Positions 19,453 to 38,357 of a DNA stretch of 60,862 nt are shown piece after piece. Numbering within the stretch: position 1 is the first letter of the stretch; each line of letters starts with the position of its first letter. A program made the position numbers and the translations under genes. Below the pieces are notes generated by a model. It saw only the letters and a program-made list of their open reading frames with translations. It had not been told where the DNA came from and did no database searches. This stretch comes from Methylobacter sp. (GTDB lineage: Bacteria; Pseudomonadota; Gammaproteobacteria; Methylococcales; Methylomonadaceae), in contig PERF01000002.1 in the NCBI GenBank assembly GCA_002928495.1, positions 1 through 60,862 of the forward strand, read 5' to 3'.

Positions 19453-21588
19453 TTATATATCCATTTGAACGCTGAGCATCACTGAGCGGCCCGGTCCCGG
19501 CATTCGGCCCAGACTGGTATCCACGCCGCGGAAGTAGTAGTCCTGGTTGAACAGGTTGTTGCCGGCGAGACCGACCCGCATGTTGGCCTTGTCCAGGCGG
19601 AAATCCTTGGTGATTTGGGCGTTCCACAGCCAGTAGCCCGGTATCTTGCCTTTGTCGCCAATGGCGCTTTCCAGCTCGGTGTTGGCCGCATCCGTGAAGG
19701 CGGAACTCAAGTACGAGCCATTGACGTTGAAATTGATCGTGTCGAGACGGTAATTGCCTTGCAGGGTAAGTTGATGATGCGAACTAAACGGCACTTCATT
19801 GTCTTTAAACGCGACCTGCGACGTGCCGCTGAACAGATCATTCATCTGCTGTGTATCCACATAGGTGTAGCCCGCCTTGAGATCGAGGCCGGCCAGGAAA
19901 GACGGTCGCCAGTCCAGTTCGGTTTCGTAGCCTTGATGCTCGGCTTGGCCCAGGTTGCGGAATTTAGTGGAGCCGTTTTCCACGACGCCGACGATTTGAT
20001 TGTCGAAGTCAAAACGGAAATAACTGAACGTGGCGTCGAGCTCCGGTACCGGCGACACGCGCAAGCCGGCTTCGTAGTTCCAGGCCTTTTCGACGCCGGT
20101 ATCGCCTTCCAGGGTAATTTGTGTGAATTGCACCGGCTGCAAGGACTTGTGCACGTTGCCGAACAGGAAGACTTTATCCGGCCACAGATGGAAACCTATG
20201 TCGACGCCGGGCAATAGTTCATTGCTGTGGCTGTCGACTACTGTATTTTTGAGACGGTTGTCGCTGGACTGCTCGATCCATTCCGCACGCAAGCCCGGCG
20301 TGACGCTGAGCCGTTCGTTCCAGACGCTCAAGGTGTCGCTGGCATAGAGGGCAAAGGCATCGGTGCCGAAACGGAAGTCCTGAGCATTGGTGACGTTGCC
20401 GGTGCTCAGGCGGCGCCGGTCGACACCCTGCTCGACGTCTTCACTGACATAACGTCCGCCTAATGTGAACTTGTGATCCAGCCAGCCGGTCTTGGCGCCT
20501 ACGGTCAGGCGGGGTTCCGTGCCAAAGACAGTGAACGTGCGCGGGCTGGTCTGTACGCCGTTGGATGTCTTCGACGGATCGAGGCTACATGAGGTCGCGG
20601 CAGCATTAAGCAGACAGCCGACGGTGAATTCGCGGTCGCTGGTGTGCGCGAAGTTCATCCAGTTGAATTCCACGGGACTGCCGAAAAAGTCAAAATTTTG
20701 GTTGTAGACCAGGTGACCTCGCACAGTATCGCCCTGAAATTTGTCGTACGGACGCTGCGACTGGAAGCGGTCCTGCTCGTAAGCCTGGGGCGACAGGCTG
20801 CCCGGCAGCTCGGTATCGGTGTTGTAATACTGCAATCCGGCCTTGATGAAAGCATTGTCGGTGACGAACCAGTGGGCGTCCAGTGCCAGGTTTTCCACTT
20901 CCGTGTCCGAATGGGCGCGAGACGAATCGCCCAGCACAGTATTTGCCTGGAATTGCAGACCTAGCCTGTCATTCACAAAACCGCCGGCGCGCAGGTAGCT
21001 GTCGGTAAGCACATTGCCCGTGTCAGTGGAGATAGTCAGCGCCTCCCTGAGGATAGCGCTGAATTTTTCCGGAATCGGTTTGCTGACGAAATTGATGACG
21101 CCGCCCACGTTATTCGGTCCATAGCGCACGGCTGCCCCGCCGCGCGCGACATCGACGCTTTCGACTGTTTGCATGGTCAGCGGAAACAGGGACAAGCCCG
21201 TCTGTCCATAAGGCGCCAGGGCGATAGGGATGCCATCGACCAGCACCAGCGTGCGCGAGCTGCGCCTGGGGTCCAATCCGCGCACGCCGATATTCGGCAG
21301 AATGCCGGTGCCGGTTTCATCCTGGGCGCGGACGCCCGGCACCAGGCGCAAAGCGTCTTCCAGTGTACGGGCGCCGGCCTGCTGCAATTCGGTGTCGGTG
21401 ACCACGGAGCGCCCCCCTGGATAGGTGCGCACGTTGTCCTTGGTCGGAGGTCCCAGCCAGTCTCCTTTGACCGTGATTTCTTCCAATATGGCAGCGTCTT
21501 GGTTTGGCTCCGCAGCTGCTAGCGGCAATGAAGCTAGATAGGCACTACCGGCTAAGGTGATGGCCATGCGAGTGGTCACGCGTTTCAT
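19453..21588 (-). CDS. TonB-dependent ferric-siderophore receptor
   Basis: A 711-aa outer-membrane receptor with a signal peptide (LAGSAYLASLPLAAAEP). The plug domain contains LEEITVKGDW (TonB-box region), LEDALRLVPGVRAQDE, GVRGLDPRRSSRTLVLVDGIPIALAPYG and VESVDVARGGAAVRYGPNNVGGVINFVSK. A 22-strand barrel follows, with the usual NLFNQDYYFRGVD near the C-terminus. It resembles FecA-type carboxylate-siderophore receptors. It is the first gene of the siderophore operon, with a Fur-like site about 65-90 bases upstream, so it probably imports the ferric form of the siderophore made by the downstream genes. Confidence 0.95.
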   Translation of the reverse strand: MKRVTTRMAITLAGSAYLASLPLAAAEPNQDAAILEEITVKGDWLGPPTKDNVRTYPGGRSVVTDTELQQAGARTLEDALRLVPGVRAQDETGTGILPNIGVRGLDPRRSSRTLVLVDGIPIALAPYGQTGLSLFPLTMQTVESVDVARGGAAVRYGPNNVGGVINFVSKPIPEKFSAILREALTISTDTGNVLTDSYLRAGGFVNDRLGLQFQANTVLGDSSRAHSDTEVENLALDAHWFVTDNAFIKAGLQYYNTDTELPGSLSPQAYEQDRFQSQRPYDKFQGDTVRGHLVYNQNFDFFGSPVEFNWMNFAHTSDREFTVGCLLNAAATSCSLDPSKTSNGVQTSPRTFTVFGTEPRLTVGAKTGWLDHKFTLGGRYVSEDVEQGVDRRRLSTGNVTNAQDFRFGTDAFALYASDTLSVWNERLSVTPGLRAEWIEQSSDNRLKNTVVDSHSNELLPGVDIGFHLWPDKVFLFGNVHKSLQPVQFTQITLEGDTGVEKAWNYEAGLRVSPVPELDATFSYFRFDFDNQIVGVVENGSTKFRNLGQAEHQGYETELDWRPSFLAGLDLKAGYTYVDTQQMNDLFSGTSQVAFKDNEVPFSSHHQLTLQGNYRLDTINFNVNGSYLSSAFTDAANTELESAIGDKGKIPGYWLWNAQITKDFRLDKANMRVGLAGNNLFNQDYYFRGVDTSLGRMPGPGRSVMLSVQMDI

Positions 21589-21650
21589 AATAAAGCTCCT
21601 TGATAATTCAGTTGTTGTTCGTATGGAGGGGCATGTTTCATGACGTCACA

Positions 21651-22117: not shown

Positions 22118-22264
22118 ATAGCAATTACGTCTTTGCTGTTTTTTTACTTTCCTTTTCACTGCAGTTATTTCATCCGCCACCCAGCTATCTGTCATTGCTG
22201 AGCTATGAGGAAAAATACAATTCGATTACAATAAACCCGGATAATAATGCGAGAGGAGAATTCC

Positions 22265-22732
22265 ATGAAAGGCGATAATAAAGTTATTGAACAACTTAAT
22301 ACGTTATTGGCCGGCGAATTAACGGCTATGGATCAATATTTTATACATTCACGGATGTATCAGGATTGGGGATTTGATAAGTTATATGAACGCATTAATC
22401 ATGAAATGCAGGATGAAACACGTCATGCAGACGCTCTGATCAAACGTATTTTATTTCTGGAAGGTGTGCCTGATCTTTCGAAAAGAGCGCCGTTAAAAAT
22501 CGGCAGTCATGTACCTGAAATGCTGAAAAATGATCTTGAATTAGAACTTAATGTGGTCGCTGCATTGAAGGAAGTTATTGCTTATTGTGAATCGGTCAAT
22601 GACTATAATACCCGCGAGATTCTGGAAAGCATGCTGCAAGATACAGAAGATGACCACACTTATTGGCTGGAAAAACAATTGGGTTTAATTGACAAGATAG
22701 GCCTGGAAAATTATTTGCAATCGCAAATGTAG
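22265..22732 (+). CDS. bfr: Bacterioferritin subunit with ferroxidase centre but no heme Met
   Basis: A 155-aa bacterioferritin. The di-iron ligands are present: Glu18 (LLAGE), Glu51 and His54 (DETRHAD), Glu94 (LELE) and the ExxH pair (TEDDH, one residue shifted). The axial heme ligand Met52 of other bacterioferritins is Thr here (DETRH instead of DEMKH). It should oxidise and store iron but not hold heme by itself. The start at 22265 has AGGAG seven bases upstream. A second subunit 5.8 kb away has the opposite losses, suggesting mixed 24-mers. Confidence 0.95.
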
Positions 22733-25180: not shown

Positions 25181-25850
25181 TACACTCATATTTAAATACT
25201 TCTTTTTCTCTAAATTTCCTTATGGGAAGGACTCATGAAAGCCCAAAAAGTACGTAAATGTCCGATCGTTTTACTTCCCCTCGCAATACTAGTGGCCATG
25301 CCTGCTATGGCTCAAACTCGAGACTATTATGTTGCTGCCGAGGACGGTATCTGGGATTTCGCCCCCTCCGGGAAGAATCTGGTCCACTGCCCAAATACCG
25401 CCCCTTGCGATATTCCTGAGCCTTGGACAGACAGCCACAGCTTTCCCGTGACGCGTTTCATCCAGTATGAAGCCGATTTCAAAACCCCGGTGCCGCAACC
25501 CGAATGGCTGGGTATCTTGGGCCCCATCATCCGTGCCGAAGTCGGCGATACTGTCAATGTCCATTTCTGCAATCGTGCTGAGGGGGCCTATGGCATGCAT
25601 CCCCATGGATTTCGCTACACCAAGGACAATGAAGGGGCGCATTTCTTTGGCGCCAATTCGGGAAGCGCGCCAGGCGCCGGGGCGGAAGTTATGCCGGGTC
25701 AATGTTTTGATTATACCTGGATCGCCGACAAGAACAGCGGGCCGGCGTCGGGCGAGTTGAGCTCCAAGGTCTGGTGGTACCACTCACACATCGACGAACC
25801 CGCTGAGACCAACAAGGGCCTGTTGGGCCCGATCATCATTACCCGCAAAG

Positions 25851-27212
25851 GCATAAGTATCTACACAACTTTTCGTAAATTTTGGCATGATGCCGCATGA
25901 TTTTAAAAAAGCCTATCCGGCGTGGACTCACGCCTAAACGACCGCTACCAGCGCCTGGTGAGTGAACACATGAATTCAAGTGAATGCCTGAGTGCTGGAT
26001 TAAAAGCGTTGCCTGACAAAATCAGCAGCTTTGCCAGCACTCAAGCGGCGTGGCGCTTCTACCAAAACGAATCGGTCAGTCTATCGAAGCTCCAAGAACC
26101 GCTCACGGTCGCCGCGCACCAAGGCATCTTGGCTCATTGCCTGAACTTCGCTTTATGCGTCCATGACTGGTCCCGATTGAGTTACAAACATGCCAACAAA
26201 CCGGACACTTACGCGATCACCCATGACACCGACATCGGCTACGATCTGCAAACCAGCCTCATTATTAGCGACCAAACGGGGCAGCCCTTGGCGCCGGTAG
26301 CGCAGAGACTGGTTAGCAGCGAAGGGAGTTTCGCGACCTATCAGGAAGCCAATCCCCAGCCCATCGTCCAAAACCATTTGGATGAAGTCAGCGATTGCAT
26401 TCAGTTTTTGGACGGACAAGGTTTTGCCAAGCCATTAGTCCACCTGATTGATCGAGAAGGCGATTCCATCGGCCATATCCGCCGCTGGGAAGCGACGGGT
26501 AGCCACTGGCTGGTACGCGTCAAGGATAATCCCAAAGTGGACTACCAGGCTAAGCCCATGGCTTGTAAAGCCGTGGCGCAAGAACTGGCGTTCAGCAAGA
26601 CTCGGGAAGTCCGTTATCAGGGTCAGACTTATTGGCAGTGGGTGGCAGAAACCGATGTGACGCTAACCCGTCCCGCCAAACCGAGTCAGAAGAAAAGCAA
26701 AAAGCCGGCTGTGCCTGGCATTCCTGTAGCGGCAAGGCTGGTGGTCAGTCGCGTCTTGTCCGACGAAGGTGATGTGTTGGCGGAATGGCTGCTATTGACC
26801 AATGTAAAAGATGTCGATGCTTCGACTATTGCGCTATGGTACTACTGGCGCTGGCAAATCGAGTGTTTCTTCAAACTGGTCAAGTCGGCAGGTCACCACC
26901 TCGAATCGTGGCAACAGGAATCAGCCATGGCCATTGCCAAACGCCTCTTGGTGGCTAGCATGGCCTGTGTTACGGTTTGGGCCATAGCCGCCGACAAAAG
27001 CAAGGAAGCGTCTGAATTAAGACTATTTCTGATCAAGCTCAGCGGCAGGCAAATGCGCCACAAAAAGGAGTTTACGAATCCAGCGCTGTTGTCGGGGCTG
27101 TGGGTCTTCCTCTCCATGCTCGAAATCATGGACGCCTACTCTCAAGAGGAGCTGGATAGTTTGAAAGCAACCGCTCAGCAATTTTTAGGAAAAGATATGT
27201 AGATACTTATGC
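25851..27212 (+). mobile_element. IS4-family insertion sequence
   Basis: A 1.36-kb element bounded by perfect terminal inverted repeats GGCATAAGTATCTACA (25850-25865 and 27198-27213). It is flanked by a direct repeat: CGCAAAG if the element starts at GCATAAG, or GCAAA if it starts at GGCATAAG. The ambiguity comes from a G shared by target and end. It holds one intact transposase gene. Clean ends and exact target copies point to a recent insertion. Confidence 0.93.
25922..27202 (+). CDS. IS4-family transposase
   Basis: A 426-aa DDE transposase. The catalytic Asp lies in ITHDTDIGYD and a second Asp in HLIDREGDSIGH. The IS4 signature Y-(2)-R-(3)-E-(6)-K is present as YWRWQIECFFKLVKSAGHHLE. The N-terminus (DRYQRLVSEHMN) carries the DNA-binding region. 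It starts at GTG 25922. The frame is complete, so the element is probably still active. Confidence 0.95.
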   Translation: MDSRLNDRYQRLVSEHMNSSECLSAGLKALPDKISSFASTQAAWRFYQNESVSLSKLQEPLTVAAHQGILAHCLNFALCVHDWSRLSYKHANKPDTYAITHDTDIGYDLQTSLIISDQTGQPLAPVAQRLVSSEGSFATYQEANPQPIVQNHLDEVSDCIQFLDGQGFAKPLVHLIDREGDSIGHIRRWEATGSHWLVRVKDNPKVDYQAKPMACKAVAQELAFSKTREVRYQGQTYWQWVAETDVTLTRPAKPSQKKSKKPAVPGIPVAARLVVSRVLSDEGDVLAEWLLLTNVKDVDASTIALWYYWRWQIECFFKLVKSAGHHLESWQQESAMAIAKRLLVASMACVTVWAIAADKSKEASELRLFLIKLSGRQMRHKKEFTNPALLSGLWVFLSMLEIMDAYSQEELDSLKATAQQFLGKDM

Positions 27213-27751
27213 CGCAAAGGGGAGGCGCGTCGCGATGGCAGTCCGAAGAACGTGGATCAGGAATTCGTCACCGCTTTTTTCGTCTTCGACAAGCTTGAAG
27301 GCGAGGAGCCAGGACTGATGCACAGCATCAACGGCTATATTTTCGGCAACCTGAAAGGACTTGTGATAGACAATGGCCAAAAGGTGCGTTGGCATGTGCT
27401 GGGGATGGGCAACGAAGTCGACCTGCATACCCCTCACTGGCACGGCAAGACCCTCACTACCGGTCGCGGGACAGCCGCTCAACGGACGGATGTCGTTCAG
27501 TTGCTTCCCGGGGGCATGATCAGCGCCGACATGAAGGCCGACAACCCGGGGGAATGGCTCTACCACTGCCACGTGGCGGATCACATTGATGCCGGCATGT
27601 TTACCACCTACCAGATCAAGGACAAATGAGCGGCTACCACGCCCTGAATGACTTCCGATGGCAGTCAGATTAAATTCTAACCTGACGCCATCTTCCGGCC
27701 AGCTCTGCCAATGGTGCAATCACAAAGAGCTGCCGGAAAATATGACTAATT

Positions 27752-27768
27752 GACGATCATTCTCATTA
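27752..27768 (+). promoter_or_regulatory. Fur box before bfd
   Basis: GACGATCATTCTCATTA at 27752-27768 matches the right half of the Fur consensus and closely resembles the strong site at 24895. It lies about 45 bases upstream of the bfd start, so iron-controlled expression of bfd and possibly of the following genes is likely. Confidence 0.65.
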
Positions 27769-27810
27769 ACATCAGCTTGTTAATATGATCAGCCAGCGGA
27801 GAGAAAAGCC

Positions 27811-28008
27811 ATGTATATCTGTTTGTGCAAAGGGGTAACCGATAGTCAGATACGGCAGGCAGTCTGCCAAGGCGCGTGCTCTATGCGCGAGTTACGCCAG
27901 CGCCTTGGCGTGGCCTCGCAATGCGGTAAATGCGGTCACTGTGCCCAAAGCTTATTACGGCAGACACGCATGACTATCACTGAAGACGCCGATTTGCAAG
28001 CCGCATAA
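27811..28008 (+). CDS. bfd: Bacterioferritin-associated ferredoxin
   Basis: A 65-aa Bfd. The [2Fe-2S] cysteines stand at CLCKGVT (CxC) and SQCGKCGHC (CxxC), as in the family. Bfd docks on bacterioferritin and reduces the stored iron so that it can leave the shell. It lies 80 bases upstream of the heme-type bacterioferritin gene, the usual partnership, and downstream of a Fur box. Confidence 0.95.
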   Translation: MYICLCKGVTDSQIRQAVCQGACSMRELRQRLGVASQCGKCGHCAQSLLRQTRMTITEDADLQAA

Positions 28009-28088
28009 CCGTAGTTTATCGCTGATTCTGGCTGGACCCGACTTGGCCTTTCCGCTAACTCACTACCACATAAATGAAGGAGTTCATC

Positions 28089-28556
28089 ATGAAAGGTGAC
28101 CTGAAAGTGCTCGACTATCTCAACAAGGTATTGACCAATGAGCTGACCGCAATCAACCAGTATTTCCTGCACGCCCGCATGTACAAGAACTGGGGTTTTC
28201 ATGAACTCAACGATCATGAATATGCCGCCTCGGTCGACGAAATGAAGGACGCCGACCGTCTGATCGAACGTATTTTGTTCCTCGAAGGCCTGCCCAATCT
28301 GCAGGACCTGGGCAAGCTGATGATCGGCGAAAACGTGCCGGAAATGCTCATGGCCGACTTGCAGCTTGAAAAAGACATCGCCATGCCCTTGCTCAATGAA
28401 GCTATCGCCTACTGTGAATCCTGCGGGGACTACATTAGCCGAGAGCTGTTTGAAGGCATCTTGTCCGGGGAACAAGGCCGCATCGACTGGCTGGAAACCC
28501 AACTGGAGTTGATCGGCAAGATCGGTTTGCAGAATTATCAGCAATCGCAGATGTGA
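28089..28556 (+). CDS. bfr: Bacterioferritin subunit with heme Met but broken ferroxidase centre
   Basis: A 155-aa bacterioferritin that keeps Glu18, Glu51, Met52 (DEMKDAD) and Glu94. His54 of the ferroxidase site is Asp, and the second ExxH His is Arg (EQGR instead of EEGH). It should bind heme at the subunit interface but oxidise iron poorly. This is the complement of the bfr at 22265, as in the two-subunit bacterioferritins of Magnetospirillum and Neisseria. AAGGAG stands eight bases before the ATG. It probably forms mixed shells and is the docking partner of the adjacent Bfd. Confidence 0.93.
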
Positions 28557-28688
28557 GCTTAGAGTTCATGGGGTAGATGCCCTGTGCTGCCAGAACTCGA
28601 TCTCTGTGGAAAGAAGATATTGCCTGCACAAGGGGCTATTCAAATACCTTATAGCGGTTTCTTGCAGGCCTGTTGTTAAGGGAGATGT

Positions 28689-29729
28689 ATGTTTGCCACC
28701 TTTATCATTACGTTGCGTGAAGGGTTAGAAGCCTTCCTGATTGTAGCCATCAGCGTGGCCTATCTGCGCCAAACGGGGCGATCGCGCCTGGTGCCGGCTG
28801 TTCATTGGGGCATCGCGGTCGCCCTTGGTGCAAGCATCGTCGCCGGCCTGCTCTTCCGGCAGGCCGAGAACAAGCCGCTGTGGGAAGGCATTTTGGCTTT
28901 GGTCGCGGCCTTGCTGGTTGCCTCGCTGACCATCCATATGCGCCATGCCGCCTACACGATGCAGGCGCCAAAGTTGCAGTTGGCCATGTTAGCGGCGCGC
29001 ACGGGCCCTGCGGCGTTTGCCGGGGTGTTCGCGTTCACCGTGTTCATGGTCGGCCGGGAAGGAATGGAAACCGTCCTGCTGATCACGGCGCTGCTGTTCC
29101 AGGTTCACTCGCCGGAGCTGCTCGCAGGCGGGGTGCTCGGCCTGATGGTAGCGGGCGGCGTTGCCTGGGCTTGGGCGCGCTATGGCCACCATGTTAATCT
29201 GACCCGCTTCTTTCAGACGACAACGATCTTTTTGTATCTTCTGGTGGCCCAACTCCTGATCTATGGCTTTCATGAACTGACGGAAGCCCAAGCCCTGCCG
29301 CTCGACAATCATTACTGGCATGCGGTAACCGAACCTTACGGCCCGGAAGGCCCCTACTGGCACTGGCTGACCTATGCGCTGGTGGCGCTGCCGGGGGGTT
29401 GGTTGTTGGTCGCTACGCTACGCGATCGGCGGTTGATGCGATGGCGGGTGGAAGAGGAGGCGCTTTCGGTGGCGATGAAACGGGAGGAGGGACGCATAAT
29501 CATGATCGCCGATCAGAAAACCGCTGCCTATTGCGACGAGAAGGGAACGATCTATCTTTTTTCCCCGGTTTGCCCGCATGCCGCATGCGACATCGCCTGG
29601 AACAGCGAGGCGAAGACCTGGGATTGCCCCTGCCATGGAGCTCGCTTCGATCCTACCGGCAAGCTCATGTGTGGCCCGGCCATGACCGATCTTCAGCTCA
29701 AAAAGCGGCTGACACCTCCCACACCTTAA
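28689..29729 (+). CDS. FTR1-family iron permease fused to a Rieske domain
   Basis: A 346-aa protein. Residues 1-245 form an FTR1/OFeT permease with about seven helices and both iron motifs: LREGLEAFLI near the N-terminus and GREGMETVLLI in helix 4. After a basic linker (LRDRRLMRWRVEEE), residues about 265-340 form a Rieske [2Fe-2S] domain: SPVCPHAACDIAWN with CxH and WDCPCHGARFD with CxxH, then GPAMTDL. The Rieske part would probably lie on the cytoplasmic face and could reduce or channel incoming iron. I know FTR1 proteins paired with ferredoxin-like partners, but this direct fusion is unusual. It follows bfd-bfr and precedes a small membrane protein. Confidence 0.93.
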   Translation: MFATFIITLREGLEAFLIVAISVAYLRQTGRSRLVPAVHWGIAVALGASIVAGLLFRQAENKPLWEGILALVAALLVASLTIHMRHAAYTMQAPKLQLAMLAARTGPAAFAGVFAFTVFMVGREGMETVLLITALLFQVHSPELLAGGVLGLMVAGGVAWAWARYGHHVNLTRFFQTTTIFLYLLVAQLLIYGFHELTEAQALPLDNHYWHAVTEPYGPEGPYWHWLTYALVALPGGWLLVATLRDRRLMRWRVEEEALSVAMKREEGRIIMIADQKTAAYCDEKGTIYLFSPVCPHAACDIAWNSEAKTWDCPCHGARFDPTGKLMCGPAMTDLQLKKRLTPPTP

Positions 29730-29742
29730 AAAAGGAAAGACC

Positions 29743-30252
29743 ATGCGTTTCGTAGTCACGGGAGAATGGAGAGAAAACCGGCTCCTTGCCCTCATCCTGA
29801 TCTGGTTTCTTGTTTTCGGCGTCGGCGTCTGGCTGACCAATCTCCTGCTCTACTTGGGTCAAATGGAATTGACTTACGAGTCGGTCGTGGCCCATTACCG
29901 GGGCAACGAGGAGCAGTTCCGTCCGCCAAGCAGCTACCGGGGGCTGTTGGAGATCACCCATTTTCATCTTCTCGCCATGAGCATCTTCATCCTGACGCTT
30001 GCTCATCTTGTGCTCTTCGTCGCCCTTTCCTCGCGGATTAAATTCTGGCTGATCCATTTGACCTTCTTCGCCGCACTCTCGAACGAAGCGGCAGGATGGC
30101 TGACCCGCTTTGTGCATCCGTTGTTTGCCTATTACAAGATCGGCGCCTTCCTGCTCCTCCAAGCATCCCTCGCGATTCTGATTGTGGCCGTATTGGCGGG
30201 TCTGCTCTTCAATACTGATAAAGAATACAACGACAATTCTCCAAAAGGGTGA
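29743..30252 (+). CDS. Four-helix membrane protein next to the FTR1-Rieske gene
   Basis: A 169-aa integral membrane protein with helices around LLALILIWFLVFGVGVWLTN, ITHFHLLAMSIFILTLAHLV, WLIHLTFFAALSNEAAGW and AFLLLQASLAILIVAVLAGL. Several His lie within or near helices (ITHFHLLAM, LAHLV, LIHL, RFVHPLF), so a b-type heme site is possible. It starts 13 bases after the FTR1-Rieske stop and is surely co-transcribed. It may pass electrons to the Rieske domain. That is inference; no family is recognised with confidence. Confidence 0.8.
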   Translation: MRFVVTGEWRENRLLALILIWFLVFGVGVWLTNLLLYLGQMELTYESVVAHYRGNEEQFRPPSSYRGLLEITHFHLLAMSIFILTLAHLVLFVALSSRIKFWLIHLTFFAALSNEAAGWLTRFVHPLFAYYKIGAFLLLQASLAILIVAVLAGLLFNTDKEYNDNSPKG

Positions 30253-30280
30253 TGTCCGGCATCGAGCAAGCGGCCTACGA

Positions 30281-30372
30281 GACTGATCGATTTCGCCTCG
30301 CTAATAGCGTTCCAGAGCAAATTTCAGTTCGCGATTTTGCCCAGGCGAGGAAAACCAAGGCTATGAATTTTT
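30281..30372 (-). pseudogene. metE: Dead 5' end of a second metE
   Basis: The minus strand reads KIHSLGFPRLGK, then after a one-base deletion [10 protein letters not shown], then TAG where MetE has Trp, then RGEID. This is the first 30 or so codons of MetE and aligns over the whole stretch with the intact gene's start (8346-8438). Nothing further of metE follows toward 30250. It lies divergent from metR, the standard metE-metR arrangement, and therefore marks a lost metE. Confidence 0.85.
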
Positions 30373-30452
30373 AGAGGTTCCCTTTAATCATCAATACCCT
30401 CCGTAGATTAAACACAAAGCGGTATTGCAGGTCTTGTATAAAACGATAAAAA

Positions 30453-30487
30453 TTGATAGTTTCTCGCTCTTTCATGAGAGAAATTCA
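30453..30487 (+). promoter_or_regulatory. MetR-type operator between the metE relic and metR
   Basis: TTGATAGTTTCTC at 30453-30465 and TGAGAGAAATTCA at 30475-30487 repeat the blocks upstream of the intact metE with the same 22-base offset. The second block fits TGAA-N5-TTCA with one change. It ends 5 bases before the metR start, as expected for an autoregulated divergent operator. Confidence 0.75.
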
Positions 30488-30492
30488 TCAAT

Positions 30493-31374
30493 ATGGAATT
30501 GATCCATTTTCGTATCCTGTTGGCGCTTAAACAACACGGCACCCTAACTGCCGCTTCAGAGTCAATGCATCTGACCCAATCAGCCTTGTCGCACCAGATG
30601 AAAAATCTGGAACAGCGTTTGGGCATTATTCTTTGGCGCAAGCAGGGGCGCACGTTGGTGTTGACCCAGGCGGGAAAATATCTTTCCGAAGTCGCCGAAT
30701 CGGTCATTGCCACTGTCGATTCCGCCGAGCAGCACTTGAACTTGCTGGCGACAGGAAAAACCGGCAAACTGACTATCGGCATCGATTGCCATGCCTGTTA
30801 TGAATGGTTTCGCACAATTCTTCAGCCCTATCTTCAGGCGTGGCCGGATTTGGCTATCGAAGTCACGTCCCGCTACCGGTTTAATTCGTTTGAGGCGATC
30901 CGGCAATACAAGCTTGACGCAGTTTTGACTTCCGACCCCGTATTTAACGGTGTGCTGCATTACCAGCCACTGTTTGATTTTGAGTTGGTGTTAATCGTCG
31001 CCAGGCAGCACCGGCTCGCCGGACTTAGAGAGATTGAACCCGCTGATCTACAACCGGAAACCATTCTGACTTACCCGGTCGACCGGGAGCGCCTGGATAT
31101 GTTCAGAAAAGTCCTCGGGCCCGCCGGGATTGAACCCTTCGCCCATATCACTGTGGAAGAAACCGACATTATGTTGCAGTTAGCCGCCAGCCAACGCGGC
31201 GTTTGCCTGCTACCGGAATGGTTGCTGGCTGACAAAATCAAGAATCCGGACGTGGTCAGTCTGCGCTTTAAAAACCTGCCGTTGACCAAAACCATGTATC
31301 TGGCGACTCGCCACGAAGATGTGCAACTGGACTATATCCAATGGCTGATAAGGCATGCGCAATCCGGTCTATGA
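30493..31374 (+). CDS. metR: LysR-type regulator of methionine synthesis
   Basis: A 293-aa LysR regulator. The HTH covers residues 1-60 (LKQHGTLTAASESMHLTQSALSHQMKNLEQRLG). The effector domain carries the MetR-typical IGIDCHACYEWF, and LDAVLTSDPVFNGVLHYQPLFDFE, ILTYPVDRERLDMFRKVL and QRGVCLLPEWL. MetR senses homocysteine and activates metE. The relic of metE upstream and the shared operator-like sequence support this identity. It very likely still controls the intact metE 22 kb away. Confidence 0.92.
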   Translation: MELIHFRILLALKQHGTLTAASESMHLTQSALSHQMKNLEQRLGIILWRKQGRTLVLTQAGKYLSEVAESVIATVDSAEQHLNLLATGKTGKLTIGIDCHACYEWFRTILQPYLQAWPDLAIEVTSRYRFNSFEAIRQYKLDAVLTSDPVFNGVLHYQPLFDFELVLIVARQHRLAGLREIEPADLQPETILTYPVDRERLDMFRKVLGPAGIEPFAHITVEETDIMLQLAASQRGVCLLPEWLLADKIKNPDVVSLRFKNLPLTKTMYLATRHEDVQLDYIQWLIRHAQSGL

Positions 31375-31454
31375 TTAGTCATTCTGACTATTCGGCTACT
31401 TGGTGCAATTAATAGTTTTGCATGTATTTTCTAGTTCCACTGGTTTGCATGCCG

Positions 31455-31901
31455 TTAGTCCGAAGCGGTAGCTCCAAGTGTTGACCGGAAAATAATGATT
31501 GCCCCCATGCCAAACCCGTATGTCGTAATGGCTATACTCATCATTAAAAAAACACGGAATGTCATGGAAAATATTCCTTCTGCGGGTTTTTCCAATACCG
31601 GAAAAATGGACTGCATAAGGAACAGGCTTGAATTGGTAAAGGCACCGATCACCATAGACCATTGCACATGCCGGGGCAATGGCACTTTCGCGGCATAAAA
31701 GCCAAAAATTAACGCACTCATTAACAAGAAATCAAGATGCCCCTGAAGTAACCGGTGGAAATCTTTAAAAATCATTTTTATGAAAGGCAGTTCCAGTTTC
31801 ATAAATACCAGGCACCATGCCAAAACCAAGGCGACTAACAGCCACAAGGCGGCACCTCTCAATAAAACGATATTGCCTGCATGTTTGGAATTTTGATACA
31901 T
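31455..31901 (-). CDS. Four-helix membrane protein, 148 aa
   Basis: An integral membrane protein with helices at about residues 12-34 (LLRGAALWLLVALVLAWCLVF), 55-70 (LDFLLMSALIFGFYAA), 80-98 and 112-140. The segment HRLLQGHLDFLLM, with charged His/Asp at a membrane boundary, recalls styrene-oxide-isomerase-like and related four-helix proteins, but this is weak. It is divergent from an AraC regulator (231-base gap), so it may be that regulator's target. Function unknown. Confidence 0.7.
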   Translation of the reverse strand: MYQNSKHAGNIVLLRGAALWLLVALVLAWCLVFMKLELPFIKMIFKDFHRLLQGHLDFLLMSALIFGFYAAKVPLPRHVQWSMVIGAFTNSSLFLMQSIFPVLEKPAEGIFSMTFRVFLMMSIAITTYGFGMGAIIIFRSTLGATASD

Positions 31902-32132
31902 TATTGATTCCCTAAAAATTTAAATTTGATAAAAACGCACATCGTTTGGCGCCCGGATTGTGGGAAGCGCCAAAGTAGTTTTTATCTAGCCTATTGAAGT
32001 TTTTAGTATGATCGTTTTTGCTGTTGTCCACTGGTGTAAAACGGAACTAAAACTTGATTACAACGGCTGTTTTGCCGATGTTTAACAGAAAAACTGATTT
32101 TCAGTGTTTATAATCGGCAAAGGTTTTGGTAC

Positions 32133-33152
32133 ATGGCTATTAACACTTCATCCACATCGAATCTTCTGAGCCACAAAGGTGTCTTTGGCCTTAAGCTTTC
32201 GACAAACGATATTCCACCGCGCGAAAGACAGGAATGGTTGCGCGAGGTGATATGCCGGGAATATGCCCATGTTGCAATAACTTCTCCTGCCAAAGCCGCC
32301 ATGTTTCAAAATCTGGTTATTTATCCCTGGAACAATCTGCAGCTATCAGTCGTTCGTTCCAGTGCGATTACTATTGAACGGTTACCGCAAGAGCCGTATT
32401 TGCACAGCCAGGATGCTTACTTCGCAGTCATCCTGGTTGCCGGTAAATACTTGATGATGCAGAATGGCCGGGAGGTTTTTTTACAGCCGGGGGATATGAC
32501 CATTTACGATGCCACCAGACCACATCGAATACAATGTCCTGATGAATTCACGAAACTGATCATTTCAATCCCTCGTTCACTTTTCAGAGAAAGTGTAGCC
32601 GGGATCGATCATTGTACCGCTCTGCTTATTCCAGGCACGGCAGGAGCCGGATTGATTGCATCGAACTTTCTGCGTTCGCTTGCCGGCCAAACAGGTCACT
32701 TAAAAGCGCATGAATTTTCCACCCTTTCCGATTCTGCCCTCGACTTGCTGACATTGGCAGTAGCCTCAGTGCGTCCGGTTGATTATGCCTTGTCCAGAAA
32801 CCGGACGCTTGCAATTAATCGTATCAAGGCGTTTATCGAAAAAAGACTCGGTGATTCGACTATTAATGCCAACCTGATTGCCAGCAGCGTGGGTTTATCA
32901 TCACGTTATATCAACGGTCTCTTTGCAGACGAGGGGACGTCCCTTATGCGTTATGTCTGGAAGCGTCGATTAGAGAGCTGCCGGAAGGATATGCTGGATC
33001 CGGTTCATGCCGGCCATCGACTATCCGATATTGCCTTTCGCTGGGGATTTAACGATCTCTCGCATTTTAGTCGGGCATTTAAACAGCAGTTTGGTTGTTC
33101 TCCTCGTGAGTTTAGACACGTTGAGACCCGGCAGTACCATCAGTCGCCCTAA
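32133..33152 (+). CDS. AraC-family transcriptional regulator
   Basis: A 339-aa regulator. The N-terminal part contains a cupin-like ligand domain (YFAVILVAGKYLMMQNGREVFLQPGDMTIYDATRPHRIQ) of the AraC-binding-2 kind. The C-terminus has the double HTH with the family signature (LSDIAFRWGFNDLSHFSRAFKQQFGCSPREFR). The ligand is unknown. It faces away from the membrane-protein gene at 31455-31901, which is the obvious candidate target. Confidence 0.93.
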   Translation: MAINTSSTSNLLSHKGVFGLKLSTNDIPPRERQEWLREVICREYAHVAITSPAKAAMFQNLVIYPWNNLQLSVVRSSAITIERLPQEPYLHSQDAYFAVILVAGKYLMMQNGREVFLQPGDMTIYDATRPHRIQCPDEFTKLIISIPRSLFRESVAGIDHCTALLIPGTAGAGLIASNFLRSLAGQTGHLKAHEFSTLSDSALDLLTLAVASVRPVDYALSRNRTLAINRIKAFIEKRLGDSTINANLIASSVGLSSRYINGLFADEGTSLMRYVWKRRLESCRKDMLDPVHAGHRLSDIAFRWGFNDLSHFSRAFKQQFGCSPREFRHVETRQYHQSP

Positions 33153-33412
33153 CAATCCGTATACGGCAAGTCAATTGCCCCAGTTTTTATTTATTGTGAT
33201 ATAGACTGTACGAGGTTATCAAACAATCACCGCATTGATCCATATGGAAAGTACACAGTCATGAAGTGTTTCTTGATTATTTTAGGACAGGTTAATTTGA
33301 TATAACCCTATGAAATAACTTTTGTTTTACAATTTTACAAACCATTAGACAAACAAATGATGCGATGTTTTGCGTCATTTAGGATTCTAAAATTATTTTA
33401 GGACTAAAAACT
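33153..33412 (+). other. Intergenic DNA with a cassette-boundary-like core
   Basis: No gene is visible here. ATTAGACAAACAAATG at about 33344-33359 resembles the sequence ending the third attC-like site (ATTAGACAGACAAG at about 41211), itself a one-base variant of the integron core GTTAGAC. It could mark the left border of the first cassette. Weak evidence. Confidence 0.3.
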
Positions 33413-34009
33413 ATGACCTATGATCTGCTCAAACTCGCCCACATCATTGGTGCCATATTGATTGGCGCGGGCTTAATTGGTGTCTGGATCTGCGATCTTC
33501 GCTCCCGGCAGTCGTTTGAACTTGTCCGTTTTTCCGAAGCTGTGCGTAACATTGCCGTGTTTTACGATGGTGTTGTGGTGCCTGGCGCCCTCATCCTTCT
33601 CACGTCGGGCATATGGATGATTGTTGAGTTTTTCGGCGGCTGGAACTTTGTCGCCGTGCCTTGGCTCGCAGGCATGGTTTTTCTTTTTGCATTCGAGTTT
33701 ATCGAGGGCAATACCATAACCCGCCTCTACTTCACGCGCTTGCGTCGGCTTACGCAAGAGGCTTTACGGGTCGGAGCATTTACGCCCGAATTGGAAAAAG
33801 CCCGTGCTGAAAACCTGCCTTCGTTTACGCATTTTCTCGATTTGCCGATGTTGTTCTTGATCGTAGCCTTGGGTGCGCTCAAACCGGACAATTGGCGTTT
33901 GTTTGTTGTCGGGTCGCTGGGCGCACTCGCTATAGCCGCTGCCCTAACAATAGTCCTCCCTCGACTTTATCCATGGGCGGCAGACCGGCGATCACCTGTC
34001 CCGCCCTAA
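33413..34009 (+). CDS. DUF2269-like membrane protein
   Basis: A 198-aa membrane protein with an N-terminal helix (LLKLAHIIGAILIGAGLIGVW) and helices at VVVPGALILLTSGIWMIVEFF, WLAGMVFLFAFEF, FLDLPMLFLIVALGALK and VGSLGALAIAAALTIVL. The KLAHIIGA start and GG/GW pattern are those of DUF2269 proteins, whose function is unknown. Its TAA stop lies inside an attC-like sequence, as in integron cassettes. Confidence 0.75.
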   Translation: MTYDLLKLAHIIGAILIGAGLIGVWICDLRSRQSFELVRFSEAVRNIAVFYDGVVVPGALILLTSGIWMIVEFFGGWNFVAVPWLAGMVFLFAFEFIEGNTITRLYFTRLRRLTQEALRVGAFTPELEKARAENLPSFTHFLDLPMLFLIVALGALKPDNWRLFVVGSLGALAIAAALTIVLPRLYPWAADRRSPVPP

Positions 34010-34092
34010 TATTACGCTCAAGCGGAGCGCGGCCAAAAAACCGTTTTCATTTTCAAGCTTTCGTGGGCCTCGCCCGCTTAGCTCTGAGTATC
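34005..34092 (+). repeat. attC-like recombination site A
   Basis: The 88-base stretch starts CCCTAATATTACGCTCAAGC, has GGAGCGCGGCC and TCGTGGGCCTCGCCC in the middle, and ends GCTTAGCTCTGAGTATC. It aligns along its whole length with site B after the next gene (CTAACATTGCGCTCAACCGG ... GGTTAGCCCTACATTAGGA). The ends correspond to the R'' and R' core boxes and the middle to L''/L' pairing. It overlaps the stop codon of the gene before it. Confidence 0.65.
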
Positions 34093-34105
34093 ACTGGGTG
34101 GAAAT

Positions 34106-34498
34106 GTGATCAGTTCTTTGTATGCTGCGATGTTGGCGCTATTGATCGTCTGGTTATCGCTTCGGGTCATAAAATTGCGCCGGGTAAAGAAAGTGCGCCT
34201 CGGCGATGGAGGCGAACCTGAACTCCGGATTGCTATCCGAGCCCAGGGAAATGCAACAGAATATATCCCTATTTCTCTGATCCTGCTCGTTCTGCTTGAA
34301 TTAAGCGGGGCTCACGCAGCCCTCGTGCATTCCGGCGGTATTGCTGTGCTCGCTGGCCGCATCCTGCATGCAAGGGGCTTGCTGACCGAAAGTCTTCGTT
34401 ACCGCGTGCTGGGAATGCAGGTGACCATCTATACTTTAATCGGATTGGCATTTGCTAATCTCGCTTACGCTGTGTTTAACGGTCTCCGTGCGCTCTAA
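34106..34498 (+). CDS. MAPEG-family membrane protein
   Basis: A 130-aa four-helix protein of the MAPEG (glutathione-transferase/eicosanoid) superfamily. The signature RIAIRAQGNATEYIPISLILLVLLE carries the RA-x-N-x-x-E-x-xP motif, and ILHARGLL fits helix 3. Bacterial members are of unclear role. It starts at GTG. It begins 13 bases after site A and ends within site B, so it has the shape of a gene cassette. Confidence 0.88.
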   Translation: MISSLYAAMLALLIVWLSLRVIKLRRVKKVRLGDGGEPELRIAIRAQGNATEYIPISLILLVLLELSGAHAALVHSGGIAVLAGRILHARGLLTESLRYRVLGMQVTIYTLIGLAFANLAYAVFNGLRAL

Positions 34499-34572
34499 CA
34501 TTGCGCTCAACCGGAGAGCGGTTAAATTTTTTTCAGCTTTCCGGGCCACGCCAGGTTAGCCCTACATTAGGA
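34493..34572 (+). repeat. attC-like recombination site B
   Basis: CTCTAACATTGCGCTCAACC at the left, CCGGGCCACGCC in the middle and GGTTAGCCCTACATTAGGA at the right match the general plan of chromosomal-integron attC sites. The right core reads ATTAGG instead of GTTAGG. The site overlaps the MAPEG stop codon. It is about 70% alike to site A by eye, with a shorter central loop. Confidence 0.7.
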
Positions 34573-34593
34573 CCATCCATCAAGGAAGTTTAT

Positions 34594-34875
34594 ATGTATC
34601 ACGTTTTAATCATTCATGAGGTTGAGGCTTATCCAGCATGGAAAGCTGTTTTTGATCAAGCGGCAGATATCAGAAAACGCGCCGGCGAAATCAGCTACCA
34701 GTTGCTGCGATACGACCATGACCCAAACAACATTGTCCACTTCTCGGTGTGGTCCTCCCTGGATAATGCCCGCCGCTTCTTCGAGTCCCCGGCGTTGGTG
34801 GAAATCAGGAGAAAGGCCGGGGTAAAGGCGCCGGAATTTATTTACCTGCACGAGATAGAACGCGGCATACTATAG
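34594..34875 (+). CDS. Antibiotic-monooxygenase-like (dimeric alpha-beta barrel) protein
   Basis: A 93-aa protein: MYHVLIIHEVEAYPAWKAVF, then ISYQLLRYDHDPNNIVHFSVW, and ARRFFESPALVEIRRKAGV. The strand-helix-strand pattern and the W--LD-A--F-ES motif are those of small ABM-type ferredoxin-like folds. Function is unknown; many are not enzymes. AAGGAAG stands seven to eight bases before the ATG at 34594. It follows attC-like site B directly and is probably the third cassette. Confidence 0.75.
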   Translation: MYHVLIIHEVEAYPAWKAVFDQAADIRKRAGEISYQLLRYDHDPNNIVHFSVWSSLDNARRFFESPALVEIRRKAGVKAPEFIYLHEIERGIL

Positions 34876-35201
34876 CCCTTAATCGAACATTCAATCGGGG
34901 CGAACTAATGGGCACTAGTCGGCTAAACAACATACGGCCCGTTTGCGCCCGGGCATCAATCAGGAACGATATGTTCACCGCGTGCTTTTCAAGCCGGTTC
35001 CCTTCAGCCCATTTGAACTGGGCGCAAAACACATGTTAATTAATAGGTATCGACTCGTGAATTTTTTTGGCGAGCGACCTAACACCTCGTTCCATCACCT
35101 TGTCATGAGTCCTTTTGAGGTCCGTAAGGCGGAACCCGTAACCCGTATGGCGTATTCGCCGGCAATACGCCGGACTTTGCGGGTATAGGCGTTTTGCTAT
35201 C
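34876..35201. repeat. Intergenic DNA with REP-like palindrome
   Basis: No credible gene lies here. GGCGTATT (35149-35156) and AATACGCC (35164-35171) form a hairpin within ACCCGTATGG...GCCGGAC, a pattern that recurs between genes of many proteobacteria. The left half of a second palindrome (GGCGTTTTGC, 35189-35198) is cut off by the IS1182 element, and its right half (GCGAAACGCC) lies at 36918-36927. Confidence 0.6.
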
Positions 35202-36913
35202 GAGACTGTGAAAGAATTCGGCGCCCATTTTTAGTAAACTATACTCAATTAACTCATTGATAAAGAATAAAAATGGCAGGTCGAAATTACAAGGTTGGCC
35301 ACAATCGCTACCAAACGGCGCTCTTACCGCCGAGCATTGATGAGTATGTATCGGAGACTAATCCGGTACGGGCCATTGAAGCTTATGTAGAAACCCTCTG
35401 TTTATTGGATTTGAAAATCCAAAATAGCGATTCAGGTCTGACAGCAGGGCAACCCGCGTTTCATCCCAGTATTCTGATCAAGCTCTACCTCTATGGCTAC
35501 ATGAACGGCCTACGCAGTAGCCGAAAGTTGGAGCGGGAAGCCGCCCGGAATCTGGAAGCGATCTGGCTGGTCGGCAACCTTCGGCCCAGCTACAAAACCA
35601 TCGCCAATTTTCGCAAAGACAACAGCATCGCCTTAAGAACGATCAATAAAGATTTCATCCTGCTCTGCCGGCAACTCAATCTGTTTAAGGGTGAAGAAGT
35701 GGCGGTAGACGGCAGCTTTTTTAAAGCCGACGCCAGCAAAGCCAGTATTTATACCGGCAAAAAAATTGAGCAGCAACTGGCGGAACTCGAAAAGAAAATT
35801 GAGGCTTATCAACAACAATTGGCCGAACAAGACAGCCGTGACGATAAGGACGGTCTTGGCAGCTTGGTTGACGATCAAGAGCTAGCCCAAAAAATCGAGC
35901 TTTTAAAAAAGAAGCAAGCCCGGAAAAAAGCATTACAAGACGAGTTAAAAGCCTCCTCACAGACCCAAATTTCAACGGTTGACCGGGATGCCCGATTGCT
36001 GAGCAAACGCGGCCAAACCACAGCCGGTTACAACGTCCAGATTGCGGTAGACGGCCAACACAAACTGCTGCTTGCCGTGGAAGTGACTCAAGACGGCAAT
36101 GATACCCAGCTCCTCATGCCCATGCTGGAAGCCTCGCAAGAGGTTCTGCAATCGGAACATCTGATTGGGCTGGCCGATTCCGGTTACTACAATGGCGAAC
36201 AGATTAAACAGGCCGACGAAAAAGGCATTGAAATTTATGTGCCGATCACCCAAAGGCGTGGCCCGAGCGTGGAAGACGGCCGTTTTACCCGCGAGCAATT
36301 TACCTACGATGCCGAAAACGATTGTTATGTATGCCCACAAGGTGAGCAACTCATCCGATACGGCAAGCTGCGCGAACATAGCAATCGAAAAGCCTGGACT
36401 TACAAAAGCAAACGCTCCGTCTGTAAAAACTGTCCCTTACGCCATCAATGCTTAACCGAAAAAGCGACCACTAAAAAACTTGATCGCTGGGAACATGAGT
36501 CTGTGATTGACCGCTACAGAGAGCACATGAAAGGGGCTGGCAAGATGATGAGCAAACGCAGCAGTTATGTTGAGCACCCTTTTGGCACCCTCAAACATCG
36601 AGCGGGCATGCATCATTTTTTGATGCGTGGCCTCGAAAAATGCCGAGGCGAATTTAGCTTAATGGCCGTTTGTTATAACTTTACCCGCGTACTGAATATA
36701 CTGGGGGTTGAAGCCTTTAGGGATTACTGCGCCCAGCAACTAAGGAAGGGCGAAAAAAGAGCGGTTTTTATTTAAAACGGGGGCAAAATCACCCTTTATT
36801 GATCCATTTTACCCTTCTACGGTAAAAACTTTTTCAATCGCTTGAAAATCTGTCAATTAGAGGCGATTTTGCACAATAGGGCTGCAATGGCTTTGGGATT
36901 CTTTCACAGTCTC
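35202..36913 (+). mobile_element. IS1182-family insertion sequence
   Basis: A 1.71-kb element with perfect 16-bp terminal inverted repeats GAGACTGTGAAAGAAT (35202-35217; complement at 36898-36913). It is flanked by the four-base direct repeat TATC (35198-35201 and 36914-36917). Removing element and one TATC restores a palindrome GGCGTTT...AAACGCC with TATC at its centre, so it inserted into a hairpin loop. One intact transposase gene lies inside. Confidence 0.92.
35273..36775 (+). CDS. IS1182-family transposase
   Basis: A 500-aa DDE transposase. The N-terminal region (YVSETNPVRAIEAYVETL) and FHPSILIKLYLYGYMNGLRSSRKLEREAARNLEAIWL are typical of the family. Catalytic Asp lies in EEVAVDGSFFKADASK, a second in IGLADSGYYNGEQI, and Glu in SSYVEHPFGTLKHRAGMHHF. 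A zinc-like Cys cluster (CVCPQGE, CKNCPLRHQC) precedes the end. The frame is complete. Confidence 0.95.
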   Translation: MAGRNYKVGHNRYQTALLPPSIDEYVSETNPVRAIEAYVETLCLLDLKIQNSDSGLTAGQPAFHPSILIKLYLYGYMNGLRSSRKLEREAARNLEAIWLVGNLRPSYKTIANFRKDNSIALRTINKDFILLCRQLNLFKGEEVAVDGSFFKADASKASIYTGKKIEQQLAELEKKIEAYQQQLAEQDSRDDKDGLGSLVDDQELAQKIELLKKKQARKKALQDELKASSQTQISTVDRDARLLSKRGQTTAGYNVQIAVDGQHKLLLAVEVTQDGNDTQLLMPMLEASQEVLQSEHLIGLADSGYYNGEQIKQADEKGIEIYVPITQRRGPSVEDGRFTREQFTYDAENDCYVCPQGEQLIRYGKLREHSNRKAWTYKSKRSVCKNCPLRHQCLTEKATTKKLDRWEHESVIDRYREHMKGAGKMMSKRSSYVEHPFGTLKHRAGMHHFLMRGLEKCRGEFSLMAVCYNFTRVLNILGVEAFRDYCAQQLRKGEKRAVFI

Positions 36914-37075
36914 TATCGCGAAACGCCCTACGGGACCTTTGAAAAGCACGCGTGGATTGACGCTTTGCTAAAGTTTCCGAGCCTGTCATAGGCTACTTTG
37001 GGTATTCCTAGTCGCAATGCTGATTAGCAATAACCGTGCTTGCAATTCAATTTATTACCATCAGCAATTTTTAGG
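36914..37075. other. Intergenic DNA right of IS1182
   Basis: Nothing was recognised apart from the right half of the interrupted palindrome at 36918-36927. It lies downstream of the DUF2380 gene on the minus strand. Confidence 0.4.
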
Positions 37076-37633
37076 CTATTGATTCTTGCGCGTTGCATGG
37101 GAAGGCGGCGGCGGTGTATAAATTTTATCCAAATCGTTGTCGATTTTAACGGCAAGACTTTCAACACCTTTTAGCGTTAGTTTTTTATCGCCGCCTTTTG
37201 TCTCTGAAATATAATTACCGATAAGTTGGCCGTCCTTCGCCCTGACTAAATGCCCCATAATATATGCGAATAAGAAGCTTGGTTTATGGAGTCTTCCAAC
37301 CACGATATAATCCGCGCCGGCTTTTTTAGCTAGCTCTGCGGCAGTATCGTTGTGGTCAAAAAGATAACCAAAACCGGCATTGGCTTCATGTTGGCTTGTT
37401 AAGTCAACAGAAATGATTTTATAGCCCGCTCTTTTTAACTCGCCTTCCAGCATGGCTTTTATACTCGCCGTTCTTTGAATTTCATCTGGCGTTCGAGGAA
37501 TTAGAGTTTGATCATTTAAATCGAAATCCAATATAGCGATGCTTGTTTCAGCACAGGCTCCAACACTGAACAAGCATAAAAAAAATACGCCAAAGATGTA
37601 GCGTAGTCCTGTATTGATTCTAGGGTTCATCAT
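37076..37633 (-). CDS. DUF2380-like exported protein
   Basis: A 185-aa protein with a signal peptide (YIFGVFFLCLFSVGACAETS). The domain starts TSIAILDFDLNDQTLIP and includes IKAMLEGELKRAGYKIISVDL, AKKAGADYIVVGRLHKPSFLFAYIMGHLVRAKDGQLIG. This is the DUF2380 pattern, which I associate with periplasmic proteins of methylotrophs and relatives near quinoprotein or sensor genes. The two-component pair 38304-40411 lies just beyond the next gene. Function unknown. Confidence 0.8.
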   Translation of the reverse strand: MMNPRINTGLRYIFGVFFLCLFSVGACAETSIAILDFDLNDQTLIPRTPDEIQRTASIKAMLEGELKRAGYKIISVDLTSQHEANAGFGYLFDHNDTAAELAKKAGADYIVVGRLHKPSFLFAYIMGHLVRAKDGQLIGNYISETKGGDKKLTLKGVESLAVKIDNDLDKIYTPPPPSHATRKNQ

Positions 37634-37680
37634 AAAATGGCAGGGTATCTTGTTGAAAAATCATCGGTAACACAAGGCCG

Positions 37681-38127
37681 TTATTTTTCTGCATTATCTT
37701 GCTGTGCTTTATATAAGCCGATGAAATCCAGCATACTCAGCGTAGCGACAACATTCAAGTCATCATCGAGAATTTCATATAAAATGCCATCACTTCCGCG
37801 AATGCTGAAAAAGACGATGGCATCCTCATCGCCGCCGCCTTCCCTATGCGGCTCATCGCTTGGGGGGCTGGAGGTATAACTGCCGACGGGCCTGGCTTCC
37901 TTTAATGCGCCATTGGCTTCATAAAGACGATGTTCCCCTTGAATGACAAACGTATTATTCAAGGCTAAATGCCGGTGCAGAATAATCTGTTGGTTTGCCG
38001 CAAACTTAAAAATCACATCGATGATTTTATCGTTTTCATCAATATTGAGAATCGAATAAGCGAGATTCTCAAACCCTTCAAGGCTTTGCCATTTAATGTT
38101 GCAATCATCGAAAAAATATCTTGTCAT
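37681..38127 (-). CDS. Cupin-fold protein, 148 aa
   Basis: A small cupin: ILHRHLALNNTFVIQGEHRLYEANG carries the HxH...E-like metal motif, and YEILDDDLNVVATLSMLDFIGLY closes the barrel. It resembles ChrR- or dioxygenase-like cupins that bind Zn or Fe. It ends 47 bases upstream of the DUF2380 gene on the same strand, so the two may be co-transcribed. The substrate is unknown. Confidence 0.7.
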   Translation of the reverse strand: MTRYFFDDCNIKWQSLEGFENLAYSILNIDENDKIIDVIFKFAANQQIILHRHLALNNTFVIQGEHRLYEANGALKEARPVGSYTSSPPSDEPHREGGGDEDAIVFFSIRGSDGILYEILDDDLNVVATLSMLDFIGLYKAQQDNAEK

Positions 38128-38212
38128 CTGTTTTCCCCCTTATTGGGCCTATTGGTTTGGTAGGCGCTAGATTAGCGAGTTAATGTAAGTCCGTAACCTC
38201 ATATCTGCCCGC

Positions 38213-38239: not shown

Positions 38240-38357
38240 CTGCGGCTATTTTCCAGGCGTAGCATTCGGGCGTAAAATGACCTGAAAGGCGTGAGGCAAG
38301 GCAATGGATCATTTCGCTGCCGAATCGTCAACAAAATATCTGGGAAGCTTGCTTATC

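Follow-up and report, generated by a model that had tools for sequence, protein, structure and literature searches.

Yeast-type FTR1 permeases operate together with a multicopper oxidase, and the permease FtrC is accompanied by the cupredoxin FtrB (PMC11966278). In other systems, the thioredoxin-like FetE/F accompany FetM (PMC10783030), and FMN-binding proteins accompany P19/FTR1 (PMC8238504). How bacterial FTR1-type permeases release ferric iron on the inner side, and how this iron is reduced there, is poorly understood. The window analysed here, a 60,862-nt stretch of a genome bin of the methane-oxidising bacterium Methylobacter sp. (contig PERF01000002.1), encodes an FTR1 permease that continues in frame into a Rieske [2Fe-2S] domain (Table 1). 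This is a genuine, lineage-specific gene fusion on an iron-related DNA segment, which is possibly mobile. Literature search found no papers describing an FTR1-Rieske architecture, in agreement with the initial annotation, to which no described direct fusion was known; as far as these searches reach, the cytosolic Rieske domain fused to a permease is a new architecture.

Similar to yeast Fet3-Ftr1 and the bacterial multicopper oxidase/FTR1 pairs, the locus has a REGxE permease beside a gene for a periplasmic-type oxidase, whereas here the oxidase is split by an insertion sequence (IS), the permease bears a putative cytosolic Rieske domain, and Bfd and Bfr lie in between. EfeU and FtrC of the EfeUOB and FtrABCD systems share the Pfam permease family PF03239 with the fusion; however, neither EfeO/EfeB nor FtrA/B/D is adjacent to it, and its redox part is fused and predicted to be cytosolic. 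The P19/FetM-FTR1 clusters (PMC8238504, PMC10783030) also supply an FTR1 permease with redox components of its own, but these are separate and extracytosolic or membrane-associated, whereas the Rieske domain here is predicted to lie inside. Among Rieske proteins of the order, the closest after a free-standing copy in genome G459 belong to FAD-dependent oxidoreductases with a C-terminal Rieske domain (~510 aa, 41-48% identity), from which the fusion differs by the lack of a FAD domain and by CHGARF in place of CHGSRF. In addition, the locus shares the membrane protein (45-55% identity) of a pair found in the order, formed by an FMN_bind protein and a membrane protein of 169-180 aa, except that the FTR1-Rieske gene takes the FMN-binding position and His39 is lost.

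Table 1. Features of the fusion locus and further ORFs, in window coordinates
Feature	Position	Strand	Basis or remarks
Multicopper oxidase, 5' piece	25235..25900	+	Pfam Cu-oxidase_3; signal-like N-terminus, runs into the IS
IS4-like insertion splitting the oxidase	25850..27213	+	35-nt inverted repeats, DDE transposase domain
Multicopper oxidase, 3' piece	27221..27629	+	Pfam Cu-oxidase_2, 5e-18; colinear with intact relatives
Short ORF overlapping the oxidase stop (MSGYHALNDFRWQSD, then stop)	27626..27673	+	Aligns with the 5' end of the G459 free Rieske gene up to 27668
Fur-box-like site before bfd	27752..27770	+	13/19; near chance level alone
Bfd (bacterioferritin-associated ferredoxin)	27811..28008	+	Pfam Fer2_BFD, 5e-12
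Bacterioferritin (Bfr)	28074..28556	+	TIGR00754, 240 bits, over cut-off
FTR1-Rieske fusion ORF	28689-29729	+	346 aa, one frame without interruption
FTR1 permease part, residues 1-253	28689..29447	+	Pfam FTR1; seven predicted helices, REGLE and REGME
Rieske [2Fe-2S] part, residues 254-346 with stop	29448..29729	+	Pfam Rieske, topology; predicted cytoplasmic, CPHAAC and CPCHGARF
169-aa four-helix membrane protein	29743..30252	+	Sequence comparison; diverged paralogue of an FMN-binding-coupled family
SSB-, ribonucleotide reductase- and uracil-DNA glycosylase-like ORFs (by eye) and DnaN (Pfam)	113-742, 42039-46170, 52116-53252, 58171-58929		

Both domains of the fusion score above the curated cut-offs within a single in-frame ORF, which favours a functional protein: residues 1-202 match Pfam FTR1 (PF03239; E=5e-33, 115 bits, cut-off 25.3) and residues 268-335 match Pfam Rieske (PF00355; E=1e-10, 41.7 bits, cut-off 20.3). 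The motifs REGLE, REGME, CPHAAC and CPCHGARF start at residues 10, 123, 295 and 313, respectively. In a 43-row alignment, R10/E11/G12 and R123/E124/G125 of the FTR1 part are invariant. The Rieske part has the cluster ligands, C295-x-H297 and C313-x-x-H316. The one-frame fusion proposed by the initial annotation is therefore confirmed with its motifs, with somewhat different limits: the FTR1 part extends to residue 253 instead of 245, the Rieske part comprises 93 instead of 80 residues, and position 30252, once taken as the end, is that of the neighbouring gene. The joint sits at the natural end of FTR1, just ahead of the Rieske fold. The permease reaches 130.6 bits against the EfeU equivalog NF041756 (NCBIfam), below the cut-off of 255, and the Rieske domain 47.1 bits against the b6f/bc1 models, below the cut-off of 154. 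The latter also departs from bc1/b6f Rieske subunits in its predicted cytosolic location and in a CHGARF motif without Ser and Tyr. In bc1-type Rieske proteins, Ser and Tyr near the cluster raise its potential; their absence from CPCHGARF therefore suggests a potential below the bc1 type for the fused cluster.

Hydropathy analysis revealed seven helices in the FTR1 part, with the two REGxE motifs placed in membrane helices. The charges alternate as for an N-out/C-in protein under the positive-inside rule: the loops 24-37, 83-97 and 163-173 are positive, as is the tail RDRRLMRWR before the Rieske part, and the loop 193-225 has a net charge of -5. The Rieske part is therefore predicted to lie in the cytosol, at the exit side of the pore, which is where the electron path first suggested for this protein needs it. 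An AF2 model for which 42 relatives were used shows the permease part with confidence, and a single helix (residues 224-269) connects its last membrane helix to the Rieske domain. This helix and the predicted cytosolic location agree with a Rieske domain that serves the permease; the low AF2 confidence for the Rieske part, together with an electron flow that is conjectural, speaks against it. No relatives of the FTR1 part were found in the PDB, either by sequence or by fold. The same single-helix cytosolic tether, and a CPCHGARF cluster of likely lower potential, would also suit a sensor that signals the redox or Fe-S state of the cytosol and thereby gates the permease, without reducing iron; no earlier example of FTR1 with a Rieske sensor was found, and the membrane redox partner would be left unexplained, so that we regard a sensor as improbable.

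A profile of the nearest FTR1 relatives, run against 84,980 species (GTDB r220), retrieved 261 relatives, and the best 80 were analysed further; statements on rarity thus refer to this permease subfamily, other FTR1 subfamilies being sampled in about 1,000 genomes. These best 80 of 261 come mostly from Acidobacteria and Betaproteobacteria. Only one of the 80 has a Rieske domain at the C-terminus, and it is a 100% identical copy from a Methylomicrobium MAG, whereas the other 79 stop ~5-32 residues past the matched permease part, near the joint. Stand-alone FTR1 proteins ending there are 44-62% identical to the FTR1 part. With the identical copy excepted, no further fusion was found in 369 genomes of the class, 329 of the phylum and 311 of the order, nor was a permease of this type found at E<=1e-15 elsewhere among the 311 genomes of its own order; the plasmid collection and the IMG/VR viral collection lack the fusion as well. 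As judged from these searches, the fusion appears to be found in only one lineage. This restriction, with 79 related permeases (among the best 80 of 261) free of a Rieske domain, counts against a functional role and is in line with an accident. Base composition was also considered as a sign of foreign origin of the FTR1 part (GC 0.61, against 0.50 for the window), and was set aside as suggestive only.

The identical copy extends over 20 kb, where window 27059-47058 is 100% identical to contig C104 of bin G445 (JAGXSU010000104.1, Methylomicrobium sp. CROMO_BS_115_2). Another 3.1 kb (window 8000-11098) is 100% identical to contig C195 of the same bin, in which no such match was found for window 11.1-25.2 kb. 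Since the bins carry assignments to different genera within one family, the shared stretches come either from a mobile replicon or from a single replicon that was placed in two bins, and the second contig with the fusion may come from the same sample and not be a fully independent assembly. The frameshift considered by the initial annotation is not seen, because the reading frame runs on across the joint and the second MAG contig has the same sequence. One could imagine that the FTR1/Rieske joint arose as an artefact of assembly or binning, since both contigs that contain it are genome-bin contigs, possibly of one sample; but the joint is open, in frame and identical in two bins over 20 kb, and the linkage of the Rieske domain with its partner is seen separately in G459, which leaves an artefact hardly credible.

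The fusion is accompanied by genes for a multicopper oxidase, Bfd, Bfr, the 169-aa protein and a LysR protein. The upstream oxidase, which is the expected FTR1 ferroxidase, had been missed in the initial annotation together with its disruption. It is intact in relatives (G388, G437, G525, G526 and G394), whereas the window copy is interrupted by an IS4-like element that has a 9-bp target duplication (CCGCAAAGG, at 25843-25851 and 27212-27220). The inverted repeats and this duplication point to a recent insertion, and a broken presumed ferroxidase weakens the case for a working uptake system. Over about 1 kb, the element shares 97% identity with a transposase region of the Methylotuvimicrobium alcaliphilum plasmid NC_016108.1.

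Downstream of the element, Bfd, Bfr, the fusion and the 169-aa gene run in the same direction behind a Fur-like site, an arrangement that favours a functional unit and places the Bfd/Bfr system, noted early on as adjacent, in the same unit as the fusion. The site at 27752 resembles a Fur-box-like site at 24892 before the oxidase (15/19), and a promoter-like match lies at 27760-27789. Given these weak consensus matches before bfd, the genes downstream of the IS need not be silenced. The best NCBIfam match of Bfd is PRK10509 (1.6e-13, below its cut-off). Moreover, FTR1 followed by Bfd and Bfr recurs in four loci (L134, L143, L151 and L152), mostly of Oxalobacteraceae, which again supports a functional association. 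Bfd normally feeds electrons into Bfr for iron release; therefore, of the earlier suggestion that Fe(II) is handed to Bfd/Bfr, only the part on Bfr fits. Elsewhere in the window, a second bacterioferritin-like gene (22235-22729) has a GC content of 0.38, compared to 0.50 for the window.

The Rieske domain also occurs apart from a permease. In G459 (contig G459:C109), the multicopper oxidase gene ends with TAATG, of which the ATG starts a free Rieske gene of 107 aa (L051:462-782), 82% identical to the fused domain and without a signal peptide evident by eye, followed by a truncated gene of the 169-aa type. Bfd, Bfr and FTR1 are absent from this locus, and the Rieske protein can therefore stand alone. 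Alignment of the two loci stops at window 27668 and restarts at 29447, right before the fusion joint, so the junctions fit a G459-like ancestor whose Rieske gene received a bfd-bfr-ftr1 cassette. Compared to a simple insertion in the window lineage, deletion of the cassette in G459 would be at least as parsimonious, because the oxidase tree groups G459 with G437 (support 0.89), where the oxidase gene is followed by a bfd remnant and bfr. Horizontal exchange could account for either direction. As to the free Rieske gene itself, an origin from a FAD-Rieske oxidoreductase that shed its FAD domain was set aside as unconvincing, since the N-terminal SxYPPL resemblance was matched by 83 and 358 of 2000 shuffles.

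These comparisons bear on the main rival, an accidental fusion in a rearranging and eroding locus. The Rieske domain and the 169-aa protein would then form an independent redox pair, to which an ordinary FTR1 was attached by rearrangement with no gain. The free Rieske gene and partner fragment of G459 agree with such an origin, as does a neighbourhood that is IS-broken and deletion-prone; erosion is likewise seen at the related loci of G459 and G437 and also argues against a working system. When the window is compared with G459, dN/dS is lowest in the oxidase (0.10), higher in the first part of the partner (0.18) and ~0.32 in the Rieske domain. The Rieske value argues against free decay and is in favour of function, yet the constraint is weaker than on the oxidase, as would suit an accident. 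Against an accident, the joint lies in frame at the natural end of FTR1, as for a tolerated or selected fusion, and the unit keeps all its parts in the right order. We consider an accidental fusion quite possible, though we would not bet on it.

The 169-aa ORF begins 13 bases past the stop codon of the fusion and has four predicted helices and six His residues, in line with the initial annotation. It has no Pfam or NCBIfam match, and its single-sequence model is weak (pLDDT 67). Homologues, typically 45-55% identical, occur in 191 of the 311 genomes of the order, and the homology covers the full length. A family member usually begins right at the stop codon of an upstream gene, the product of which has the covalent-flavin motif [ST]GATLS (SGAT in 22 of the 28 loci examined, TGAT in three more), and in the window's own genome the protein upstream of the paralogue matches Pfam FMN_bind over the cut-off. 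Outside the order, close homologues were found in three genomes of one other family; weaker relatives also occur, two of them beside possible FMN-bind-like proteins. Because it is usually coupled to an FMN-binding periplasmic protein, we interpret the family as membrane redox partners of periplasmic flavoproteins. Directly upstream of the window copy lies the FTR1-Rieske gene, not an FMN-binding gene, so that at this locus a redox membrane protein whose family mostly accompanies a flavoprotein stands next to an iron-sulfur protein.

The idea that the 169-aa gene always follows FTR1 did not hold, since it is present at none of the 79 related FTR1 loci (among the best 80 of 261). Sequence comparison indicates that it is not an FTR1 partner by descent, and coupling of its family to a periplasmic flavoprotein rather than to a permease disfavours a role in iron uptake. 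A look for conserved His residues had been suggested in the initial annotation: His73, His75, His88 and His125 are near-invariant in the family and kept in the window copy, but Gly replaces His39, which is found in 28 of 28 relatives. The protein may therefore not hold the same cofactor set. With this invariant His missing and no Pfam match, the membrane b-type heme first suggested is conjectural.

A distant relative (L208:1021-1830) has a CTVCH, c-type heme-like motif in an outer loop. In addition, the order contains a conserved triad (L194:4743-7300, L056-L083) of a porin-like ORF, an FMN-binding periplasmic protein and a membrane protein of 169-180 aa, apparently a widespread, uncharacterised redox module of these bacteria. 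Electrons might be exported in parallel to the permease, from the cytosolic Rieske domain through the 169-aa protein to the periplasm, where external ferric iron or another acceptor would be reduced. The pairing of the partner's relatives with periplasmic FMN-binding proteins and the CxxCH of the distant relative would fit such a route. However, no periplasmic acceptor gene stands directly beside the window copy and the invariant outer-side His (39) is lost, making electron export a long shot.

Altogether, we propose, with a probability of roughly 0.4, a ferroxidase-type FTR1 uptake system in which a tethered cytosolic Rieske domain would reduce exiting Fe(III) and feed Bfr. The upstream periplasmic multicopper oxidase, its gene broken by the IS in the window, would oxidise Fe(II), in the way that Fet3 serves Ftr1 in yeast, and Fe(III) would cross the FTR1 helices via the two REGxE motifs, as is known for the family. 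At the exit, the tethered Rieske cluster may reduce Fe(III), with the 169-aa membrane protein or a cytosolic reductase as the putative electron donor. Bfr would be loaded with Fe(II), and Bfd would later give electrons for its release, in keeping with the roles of these families. Dedicated redox components of FTR1 systems elsewhere support this proposal. A more ambitious version, a new type of FTR1 transporter whose fused Rieske domain is wired to the membrane redox protein, so that Fe(III) reduction at the pore exit drives or rectifies uptake before storage in Bfr, seems doubtful to us. A permease with a tethered Rieske cluster of its own would allow release and reduction on the inner side to be studied directly within a single polypeptide, by spectroscopy and through ligand mutants.

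Several further features of the contig and of related loci were observed. The 61-kb contig has ORFs read by eye as SSB-, ribonucleotide reductase- and uracil-DNA glycosylase-like, in addition to a DnaN sliding clamp (Pfam), a set that recalls a large plasmid or chromid; no overlap of the contig ends was found. A siderophore region (window 10422-21645) encodes two IucA/IucC-type synthetases, an ATP-grasp enzyme, a PLP decarboxylase and an MFS exporter, and includes a TonB-receptor-like ORF (19456-21645, read by eye). Together, this region and the multicopper oxidase-FTR1 part give the contig the appearance of an iron-acquisition island. In Polymorphobacter (L033:3036-5783), a related stand-alone FTR1 gene follows those of an NO-inducible flavohemoprotein and a truncated globin, hinting at a link to nitrosative stress. 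Finally, an OsmC-like gene, named by eye, lies ~50 bases after the permease in 21 loci of the FTR1 subfamily (e.g. L113:3996-4460).
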